Shown here: positions 45,538-47,902 of the stretch, piece after piece | How positions within the stretch are numbered: position 1 is the stretch's first letter | Layout: every line of letters starts with the position of its first letter | Assembly: GCA_937902985.1 (NCBI GenBank) | Contig: CALFNG010000030.1 | Coordinates: 1 to 51,003 of the forward strand | Origin: an uncultured Myxococcales bacterium | GTDB taxonomy: Bacteria > Myxococcota_A > Polyangia > Polyangiales > Polyangiaceae | Direction: 5' to 3' | DNA length: 51,003 bases | Program-made: the position numbers and the translations under genes | Notes under the pieces: generated by a model | Seen by the model: the letters and a program-made list of their open reading frames with translations, nothing else | What the model was told of the DNA's origin: nothing | Database searches by the model: none

Positions 45538-46872
45538 CTAGTTGGTCAGCGGGTTGCCCGACTTGTCGCACGTGTAAAATACGGAATAGGTCGAGTCCGT
45601 ATTCGTGACGTTGCCGGGCCATGCGCATGTGGGCCTGCAACAATCCTGCATGGATGTCGTCGTGTAACCGGACTTGAACGAGCTATCCGCGGAGGTCCGG
45701 TCCTGGACGTTCGGGCTCGCCGCCGGCAGACCCTGATCGTTGAGCTTGCACCCGGTGACGCGCGTCAGGTTGGCCGGGCACGTCACGCGCTTGGCGAGCA
45801 CGCTCCAGTTCGTGTGGTACTCGCTGTCTGGCAGGTTCGACTCGATGCAGGACGCCTGCGTCGTGGTCTGGGCCGCGCTCGAGGAGCTCAGGATCATGTC
45901 GCACTGCGACTGGACGTAGCTCTCGCATGTCGCCGACCCGATCGATAGCGCGCTGTACCCTCCGCCCGATGCGCACTGGCTGTACCGCGTCGCCTTGACC
46001 CCGCCGGCGTACGTACCCCCCTGGTCGGGAAACTGGCTGTACATCGCGTTCGAGACGCCCGCGCATGCGTTGTTCGCGCCGTAGCCGCCGTCTCCCATGT
46101 AGACGTCGAAGTTCTTCGCCCCACCCGCCTGTGTGTTGAAGGCCTGGACGATCATCGGCTTGGGGATCGGCAGGCCGCTCGCGCCCTGCGGCGTGTCGAA
46201 GACGAGCTGATAGCACTGGCAGCACGTGTTGCTGTTGGTGTCGACGCCCCCGAGATCCGGATCGTGGCCCACGGTCCCGTAGACGAAGGGCGGGTCCGCG
46301 CTGTTCCAGTCCGCCATCGCGGCTTGCTTCATCTCCGAGCTGAAGAGCATCGATCGCGGGCACATGTACCCGTTGCCGCCCGTGCACGCGCTCTGATCCC
46401 CGTTGTTCGCGTTGGGGGGGTTGATCTGGTAATTCGGGCACGCGCCGCAGGACCCGCCGCAGTCGACCCCGGTCTCGGTGCCGTCCTTCTTGCCGTTGAG
46501 ACAGGGCGGGTCCGGCGTGAGGCCGGGCGAGGGGCTCCCATCGGAGCTCGCGTCATGGACCTTTCCGCCGGCGTCGAAGACGGTCGAGCCGGCCTCCGGC
46601 CGAGGCGCCCCCCCTTCGCCCCCCGGGCCCTGCGTCGCTGGATTCGAGGTCGCGTCGGCGCTGTCGCCGTTCGCGAGGCCGCCGCTGTCGCTGCCCGGGT
46701 CGGTCGTCGTGCCGCCGCTTCCGCTCGAGCCTCCGGACGTGTTCCCGGGCAATCCGTCGCCCGGCTGGGTCGCCCCCGTGGAGCACGACGCGACCCCCAC
46801 GCAGATGAAGAGGAGCAGCGTCGACGCGCTGCGTCCAACGAAAGCGACCCCGTGTCCTCCGGCTCGGCGCAT
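45538..46872 (-). CDS. GH45-like endoglucanase, apparently circularly permuted
   Basis: A 444-residue lipoprotein (lipobox Cys30 in VGVASC) with a Gly/Asp tether. Its catalytic region reads in the order: [23 protein letters not shown] (Cys217-Cys220); [20 protein letters not shown] (Asp256); [19 protein letters not shown]; then at the very end [12 protein letters not shown] (Asp410) and [12 protein letters not shown]. In ordinary GH45 enzymes the WDCC-type segment with the catalytic base is the N-terminus and the CPA-x-L-x-x-x-T-G-C segment is the C-terminus. Here that order is rotated, with both catalytic Asp positions kept. GH45 enzymes cut beta-1,4-glucan. First gene of the operon with the expansin; divergent from 47030. 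Confidence 0.8.
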
Positions 46873-47029: not shown

Positions 47030-47902
47030 ATGAATCGATGGGTTGTTTCTTGGGTCGGCTCCGGGACGCTCGGCGCTTGCCTTGCTCTGGCGAGCGCTTG
47101 TTCGAGCAAGGCTCCAACGCAGTTCCTGGGCACGGACGACGAAGGCGGCACGGCGACCTCGTCGAGCGGTACCTCGAACAGCCAGGGCTCGAGCGGGGGC
47201 GGCGGGTCTGGAAGTAGCAACGGCGGGACGACCACGGGCAGCGGTCCAGCGTCGACGGGCTCGTCGAGCGGCTCCCCGTCGGGCTCGTCGAGCGGATCCT
47301 CGAGCGGGAGCACGATGAACCCGACCGGAACCGGCAGCGACGGCGGGACAGCCGCGAGCTGCAGCGCGACGATGGCCGCGGGAGCCATTCCGCTCGCGAC
47401 GAACTTTCTGGAACCGAAGGTCATCGGAAGCGGCGGCTACGCCTATGCCTACAGCGACGCGGCGAAAGGTGGAATGAGCTCTGCCTGCGTGGACACGCTC
47501 GCCCTGTGCGGCGCCGGGATGACGGGCGCGATGTCGACGGACACGTGGGGCGCGGGCATCGGCGTGAACCTGAATCAGGCGATGTCGACGTCCGCCGCCT
47601 CCCCGCCCATCGGGATGATGGCCGTGACCGGCAGCGGCATCAGCTACACCCTGAGCAACCTGCCGTCTCAGGGCGCGCGCATCATCATCGACAACGCCGG
47701 CATGGACTATTGCGCGCCGCTGTCGGCCGCGAGCGGGACCGTCAAGTGGGCCGATTTCAACCTGACCTGCTGGGCGCCGACGCCCTCCGGCGATCTGTCG
47801 GGTGCGCCGACGACGGCGACGCACCTGAACTTTCAGGTCGACGCAGCGACGGCCGCCGCGCCATTCGATTTTTGCGTCACCGCCGCCAGCTTCGCGCCGT
47901 AG
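47030..47902 (+). CDS. secreted lipoprotein with carbohydrate-binding-like beta domain
   Basis: A 290-residue lipoprotein. MNRWVVSWVGSGTLGACLAL, then ASAC, gives the lipobox. GGAG lies seven bases before the ATG. A Ser/Gly tether of about 85 residues leads to a beta-rich domain (GSGGYAYAYSDAAKGGMSSA, GISYTLSNLPSQGARIIIDN, GTVKWADFNLTCWAP and FDFCVTAASF) similar in order to CBM11- or CIA30-like beta-sandwiches found next to cellulases. No catalytic residues are seen. Divergent from the GH45-like/expansin operon with 157 bases between, so shared control is plausible. Confidence 0.7.
   Translation: MNRWVVSWVGSGTLGACLALASACSSKAPTQFLGTDDEGGTATSSSGTSNSQGSSGGGGSGSSNGGTTTGSGPASTGSSSGSPSGSSSGSSSGSTMNPTGTGSDGGTAASCSATMAAGAIPLATNFLEPKVIGSGGYAYAYSDAAKGGMSSACVDTLALCGAGMTGAMSTDTWGAGIGVNLNQAMSTSAASPPIGMMAVTGSGISYTLSNLPSQGARIIIDNAGMDYCAPLSAASGTVKWADFNLTCWAPTPSGDLSGAPTTATHLNFQVDAATAAAPFDFCVTAASFAP

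Follow-up and report, generated by a model that had tools for sequence, protein, structure and literature searches.

The GH45 family comprises small, industrially used cellulases, and the segment that opens their chain contains one of the catalytic residues. Among PDB sequences, the closest to the protein described here are those of subfamily A, represented by Humicola insolens Cel45A (EGV, 2ENG) and Thielavia terrestris 5GLX. In Cel45A, the catalytic base is Asp10 and the catalytic acid is Asp121, and we take its disulfides to be 11-135, 12-47, 16-86, 31-56, 87-199, 89-189, and 156-167. Natural circular permutants occur among glycoside hydrolases: the GH16 lichenase of Fibrobacter succinogenes and GH70 relative to GH13. 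These resemble the permuted GH45 proteins in having moved termini and a kept active site, but they belong to other folds and families. Expansins and loosenins (double-psi β-barrel, expansin_EXLX1) have a barrel related to the six-stranded double-psi barrel of GH45. Both expansin EXPB1 and GH45 subfamily C lack an equivalent of Asp10 (PMC5829257). Among bacteria, only 31 of 16,401 species were credited with GH45 in a 2024 RefSeq survey that looked for orthologs of fungal enzymes (PMC13084967).

Here, we analyze a gene for a GH45-type protein within a stretch of 51,003 nucleotides from an uncultured Myxococcales bacterium (hereafter, the window). It belongs to a known family in what, judging from its sequence, is a new, permuted form; the rearrangement is well supported, and the enzyme activity is predicted. 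We found no earlier report of such a form in open-access text on permuted GH45, endoglucanases, and double-psi barrels.

The Gene and Its Neighbors

The gene coding for the circularly permuted GH45-type lipoprotein (P0001, 444 aa) occupies positions 45538..46872 of the minus strand, in an open frame that runs from the ATG at 46872 to a TAG stop codon at 45538-45540, and it has homologs with the same protein order. The sequence reads as a signal peptide with the lipobox VASC (Cys30; 46783..46872), the motif from which lipoprotein export is predicted, followed by a low-complexity linker rich in Ser, Gly, and Thr (residues 31-123, 46504..46782) and a Cys-rich, CGG-type motif of 22 residues (124-145, 46438..46503), all on the minus strand. 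This last motif is common to the relatives at L001 and L049 and absent from the other permuted members (see following). It also recurs in L002, where a very long Myxococcota protein, encoded from 4649 onward on the plus strand, is made of C.NG..NG.ET..DCGG repeats. The catalytic domain of P0001 (~297 aa) is the C-terminal part of the chain, from Tyr148. Its first part is the GH45 body (residues 148-385; 45718..46431, minus strand), equivalent to Cel45A from ~41 to the C-terminus and identified by a PF02015 match, hhalign, and VIA-align. Its last part is the transposed first segment of GH45 (residues 403-444; 45541..45666, minus strand), equivalent to Cel45A ~5-40 and identified by phmmer, hhalign, and a rotation scan.

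The downstream gene, P0002 (44444..45520, minus strand), begins 17 bp after the stop of P0001 and codes for a lipoprotein that resembles expansin EXLX1 and contains a long Ser-Gly linker. Because its score against NF041144 is just below the NCBIfam cut-off (91.9 versus 100 bits), with weak matches to DPBB_1 and Expansin_C, we class it from its sequence as a divergent expansin. P0001 itself differs from expansins in having an equivalent of Asp10 and no match to Expansin_C in Pfam. The two genes are probably cotranscribed; their order is not conserved at the other permuted loci, within the flanking sequence examined. On the other side, the divergent neighbor at 47030..47902 (plus strand) codes for a lipoprotein that is not part of the enzyme. 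It is akin to a module that the relatives at L026 and L036 carry in fusion with canonical GH45 (tblastn, 30% identity with E 1.3e-10 and 27% with E 7e-8), has no Pfam or PDB match, and is possibly an unrecognized carbohydrate-binding module.

Order of the GH45 Segments

The domain of P0001 starts with a stretch of 16 residues and continues with segments of 13 residues (from Cys217), 18 residues (containing Asp256), and 11 residues (to Cys375). DCCRPTCAW (with Asp410) is found at the extreme C-terminus, followed by 12 residues. The equivalent of Cel45A ~41-210 comes first, and the opening segment of the enzyme (Cel45A ~5-40, from a stretch of 14 residues to one of 12) comes last. The first-pass annotation had read the segments in this order, with DCCRPTCAW at the end of the chain, and both the sequence and the permuted blocks of the phmmer alignment with 5glx agree. 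It had also rightly placed the domain-opening segment at the domain start, while describing it as GGNAYMC-like; the sequence reads GGNGYMC.

A phmmer search of PDB sequences with P0001 matches GH45 chains only. The best chain, 5glx, is matched in three blocks, in which residues 195-292, 360-387, and 401-436 of P0001 align with 71-154, 188-216, and 7-37 of the chain, respectively. When the domain is rotated so that DCC comes first, the first and second blocks of the chain fuse (chain 11-153), and the whole-chain score of the top PDB match increases from 31.1 to 41.4 bits. The same effect is found with PF02015 (Glyco_hydro_45, Pfam gathering score 27 bits), which the catalytic region matches with 33.4 bits in two stretches in native order and with 46.4 bits in a single stretch after rotation. 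Neither Pfam nor NCBIfam gives a match for full-length P0001, although the domain alone exceeds the PF02015 cut-off. In a rotation scan of the domain against a profile of 21 ordinary GH45s, the best cut lies 7 residues before DCC and scores 32.6 bits, versus 19.7 bits in native order. Given the three permuted blocks within one PDB chain and the shuffle controls described below, the arrangement of GH45 segments in P0001 is not attributable to chance.

Rotation scans of single proteins against the canonical profile show a clear peak at DCC for P0001 and L001 and a weaker one for L049, and are flat for the more divergent permuted members, favoring no cut; PF02015 is matched by 3 of 11 aligned permuted members at E up to 1. 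Because of these flat scans, profiles were compared instead, one of 13 permuted proteins and one of 21 myxobacterial GH45s of ordinary order (loci L026-L055). In native order, hhalign finds matches of 57, 29, and 20 columns in permuted sequence, the top one with 79.8 bits over the 57 columns. Rotation at or upstream of DCC turns the two main matches into one of 123 columns with 117.4 bits. About 117 bits over 123 columns are obtained for any cut between the end of the Cys135 block and DCC, and the score drops for cuts inside the DCC segment. The profile of the moved C-terminal segment alone scores 48.6 against columns 5-33 of the canonical GH45 profile (hhalign), compared with maxima of 24.1 in 200 column shuffles and 28.1 in 200 shuffles with the cysteines fixed. 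Since a single canonical profile favors no cut for the divergent members, their permutation rests on two separate matches each.

Distribution of the Permuted Form

Relatives were searched for among Myxococcota genomes, with a scan of genome contigs that reached close relatives. Homologs sharing the order, which the first-pass annotation had proposed to look for, were found in the form of 16 Myxococcota proteins that keep the C-terminal DCC segment plus the body or part of it. Two of these, L010 and L079, represent a single gene; its protein, like that of L076, is incomplete on the N-terminal side. In each of the 16, DCC occurs exactly once, close to the C-terminal end. A second DCC upstream, which had been named as the observation that would speak against a permutation, is found in none of them, and none has an ordinary N-terminal segment upstream or a DCC at both ends. 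The protein of L001, from a Myxococcota MAG, is 61-63% identical to P0001. The permuted order recurs in independent genomes at 39-61% identity, always in open frames without stops, and G057 has it in two contigs.

The permuted type is present in the family of the window's genome, in another family of its order, and in one more of its class (G446). An order-level search matched 12 of 184 genomes, one of them by a C-terminal remnant only; a search of plasmids gave no match. The remnant, in G078 (L067 5814-5945 / L011), corresponds to the ~45 last residues of a permuted GH45 and precedes a gene for a GH5 cellulase. It looks like a decayed copy, since the sister genomes G057 and G486 keep the full gene. 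Permuted and ordinary GH45 genes are found together in six genomes (G004, G011, G029, G044, G047, and G108); the genome that contains the window has no PF02015 match other than the permuted gene. In the unrooted tree of ordinary and rotated permuted sequences, the 13 permuted ones form one side of a branch with a support of 100/100, in line with a single origin of the permutation. Ahead of the Cys47 block, most permuted members (L004-L009 and L021-L023) have an additional Cys-rich stretch at the N-terminal side (PPPSQCHNQ...CGGKC), which is absent from P0001, L001, and L049.

Catalytic Residues, Cysteines, and Chain Ends

Cel45A is numbered here after the 2ENG sequence; the residue mapping is provisional, and the phmmer alignments agree with it. 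The catalytic acid Asp121 corresponds to Asp256 of P0001, within NFDV (46105..46107, minus strand), and the catalytic base Asp10 to Asp410, within QDCC (45643..45645, minus strand). Both are invariant in 13 of 13 aligned permuted and 21 of 21 canonical members, so that the two catalytic positions reported by the first-pass annotation are indeed kept. The residue before the catalytic Asp of the DCC segment is Gln and not Trp. With this single segment at its C-terminus, P0001 lacks the linear order starting with (Y/F)WDCC, a trait of the ordinary GH45s examined that is no formal criterion.

All 14 cysteine positions of Cel45A are occupied by Cys in every aligned permuted member covering them (n = 13, of which one is a contig-end fragment), the matches to C156 and C167 being less certain as they fall in a divergent region. 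Under the pairing we assume for Cel45A, 11-135, 12-47, 16-86, and 31-56 would tie the moved segment to the body. C87 and C199 are kept in the permuted members and absent from the ordinary myxobacterial GH45s. The latter seem to be without a disulfide (Cys87 replaced by Gly, no Cys199) that fungal and permuted members keep. Because the chain of P0001 ends with the Cys31 block (10 residues) and the domain begins just before the Cys47 block (NNGDQSAC), the new termini map to Cel45A ~40/41, with essentially no loss of sequence. The old C-terminal tail (TGC-K-x-N-D-x-G-x-P) is retained, and a linker leads on from it to TTSM-QDCC. This linker between the old C-terminus and the old N-terminus has 25-30 residues and is present in all permuted members.

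With subfamily A, the permuted family shares Asp10/Asp121, the 14 cysteines including C87 and C199, and the CC.CY, FD, GG.G, and CP..L..TGC blocks. It differs by the C-terminal position of the first ~40 residues, the lipoprotein anchor, a longer C135-C189 region, and several residues: Tyr8 is replaced by Met (13/13) and Ala74 by Gly (12/12), Asp114 is absent (12/13), and His119 and Tyr147 are not kept. An invariant Gly-His-Asp (G202-H203-D204) begins at the position of Ala74. Asp114 is variable among ordinary GH45s too. The 21 ordinary-order proteins of Myxococcota (L026-L055) come from the same phylum, often from the same genome, and have the same catalytic pair. They start with TRYWDCC, have Gly for C87 and no C199, keep Tyr8 (Phe in one) and Ala74, and form a separate clade. 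In beetle GH45s, changes at the sites of Tyr8, Ala74, and Asp114 accompany lost or altered activity in some cases but not always (PMC6509783).

Structural Model

A single-sequence AlphaFold2 model of full-length P0001 is unusable (pLDDT 32), and a model made with 11 sequences has pLDDT 62.8 and pTM 0.70. The 12 PDB entries to which VIA-align gives Z ≥ 2 are all GH45 enzymes, and the best match has Z 6.6 with an rmsd of 4.3 over 153 residues, which is modest (Z < 8). Residues 14-241 of the model superpose on Cel45A ~39-213, i.e., on the body minus the first segment. A Foldseek search of the PDB with the alignment-based model gave no significant match, as expected from an order-dependent search and a moderate model. 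On the structural check suggested by the first-pass annotation, the body superposes as expected of a permutation, but the C-terminal DCC segment is modeled with pLDDT ~40-55. Given this value, the modest Z, and the Foldseek result, we infer the placement of residues 403-444 in the barrel from sequence and cysteine conservation.

Discussion

At least a dozen related proteins share the permuted order and keep the cysteines and the catalytic acids; hence, we regard the permutation as real and natural rather than as an error. A natural circular permutation of GH45 is what the first-pass annotation had proposed, and independent sequence tests and 16 proteins of the same order support it. In our view, P0001 is quite likely an exported lipoprotein with a naturally permuted GH45 domain, whose moved segment fits back into the barrel and which works as a surface β-glucanase. 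A linker of ~25-30 residues would connect the old C-terminus (10 residues) with the old N-terminus (TTSMQDCC), and a loop at Cel45A ~40/41 would have become the site of the new termini. Most likely, the moved segment would take up its usual position in the barrel and be held to the body by disulfides, if the presumed pairs are correct, so that Asp410 (base) and Asp256 (acid) would rebuild the inverting active site. The permutation probably arose by duplication, fusion, and trimming; no duplication-fusion intermediate with a DCC at both ends was found among the 16 permuted proteins.

An inverting endo-β-glucanase is the most likely function of the permuted enzyme. The invariant catalytic pair, the predicted lipoprotein export, and the gene neighbors point to an endo-β-1,4-glucanase, or a β-glucanase of related specificity, acting on the cell surface beside the expansin. 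In G057, the permuted gene is followed by a GH5 cellulase gene; in L001, there is an LPMO_10 gene near it; and the window's genome has six GH5 matches and one GH9 match. Because Tyr8, Ala74, and Asp114 are replaced by Met, Gly, and a gap, both activity and specificity are to be taken as predictions. These replacements, fixed or nearly so in permuted members, together with the new invariant G202-H203-D204 at the Ala74 position and the altered or lost activity that goes with such changes in some beetle GH45s (PMC6509783), would also fit a permuted GH45 that is no longer an ordinary cellulase and either cuts another β-glucan (e.g., xyloglucan) or only binds or loosens polysaccharides. We consider this unlikely, though to be kept in mind, as the catalytic Asp pair, invariant in 13 of 13 aligned members, is hard to explain without catalysis and the neighboring genes code for cellulases or cellulose-acting proteins. 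Another reading, somewhat less likely than not, is a separate GH45 lineage with one permutation in or before Myxococcota, reattachment by conserved disulfides, and a remodeled site (Met, Gly-His-Asp, no Asp114) with a substrate range or mechanistic detail new to GH45.

Other explanations concern the moved segment itself. One could imagine a domain swap in which this GH45-derived segment completes the barrel of a neighboring molecule, in a dimer or a chain. Intramolecular and intermolecular placements are indistinguishable by sequence, and the linker is long enough for both; nevertheless, 25-30 residues in all members is what a monomeric permutant needs, and there is no sign of oligomers, which makes the swap improbable. 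More improbable still is a reading without permutation, in which a GH45 deprived of its first segment carries an unrelated Cys-rich motif, the DCC segment, that resembles GH45 by convergence. Cys-rich stretches do occur in myxobacterial surface proteins (L002), and model confidence is low for the segment, but its score of 48.6 exceeds the maximum of 28.1 in shuffles with cysteines kept, its catalytic Asp and four cysteines are invariant, as are the body cysteines presumed to pair with the latter, and its ends match Cel45A ~5-40 and ~41 onward. The remaining idea, a chimera of two GH45 fragments created by assembly or gene prediction, might come to mind since the genome that contains the window is a fragmented draft in 563 contigs; its probability is negligible, and for P0001 it is refuted by the homologs having the same order in independent genomes, at 39-61% identity and in frames without stops.

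Annotation can miss genes for permuted GH45s, and surveys of myxobacterial cellulases may undercount them, since the full-length protein is assigned no Pfam family even though its catalytic part exceeds the cut-off. The permuted GH45 lends itself to testing the influence of disulfides and termini on the active site, and it offers new termini for fusions. For the family itself, a natural permutation found across a clade indicates that the GH45 barrel tolerates the relocation of its first segment.
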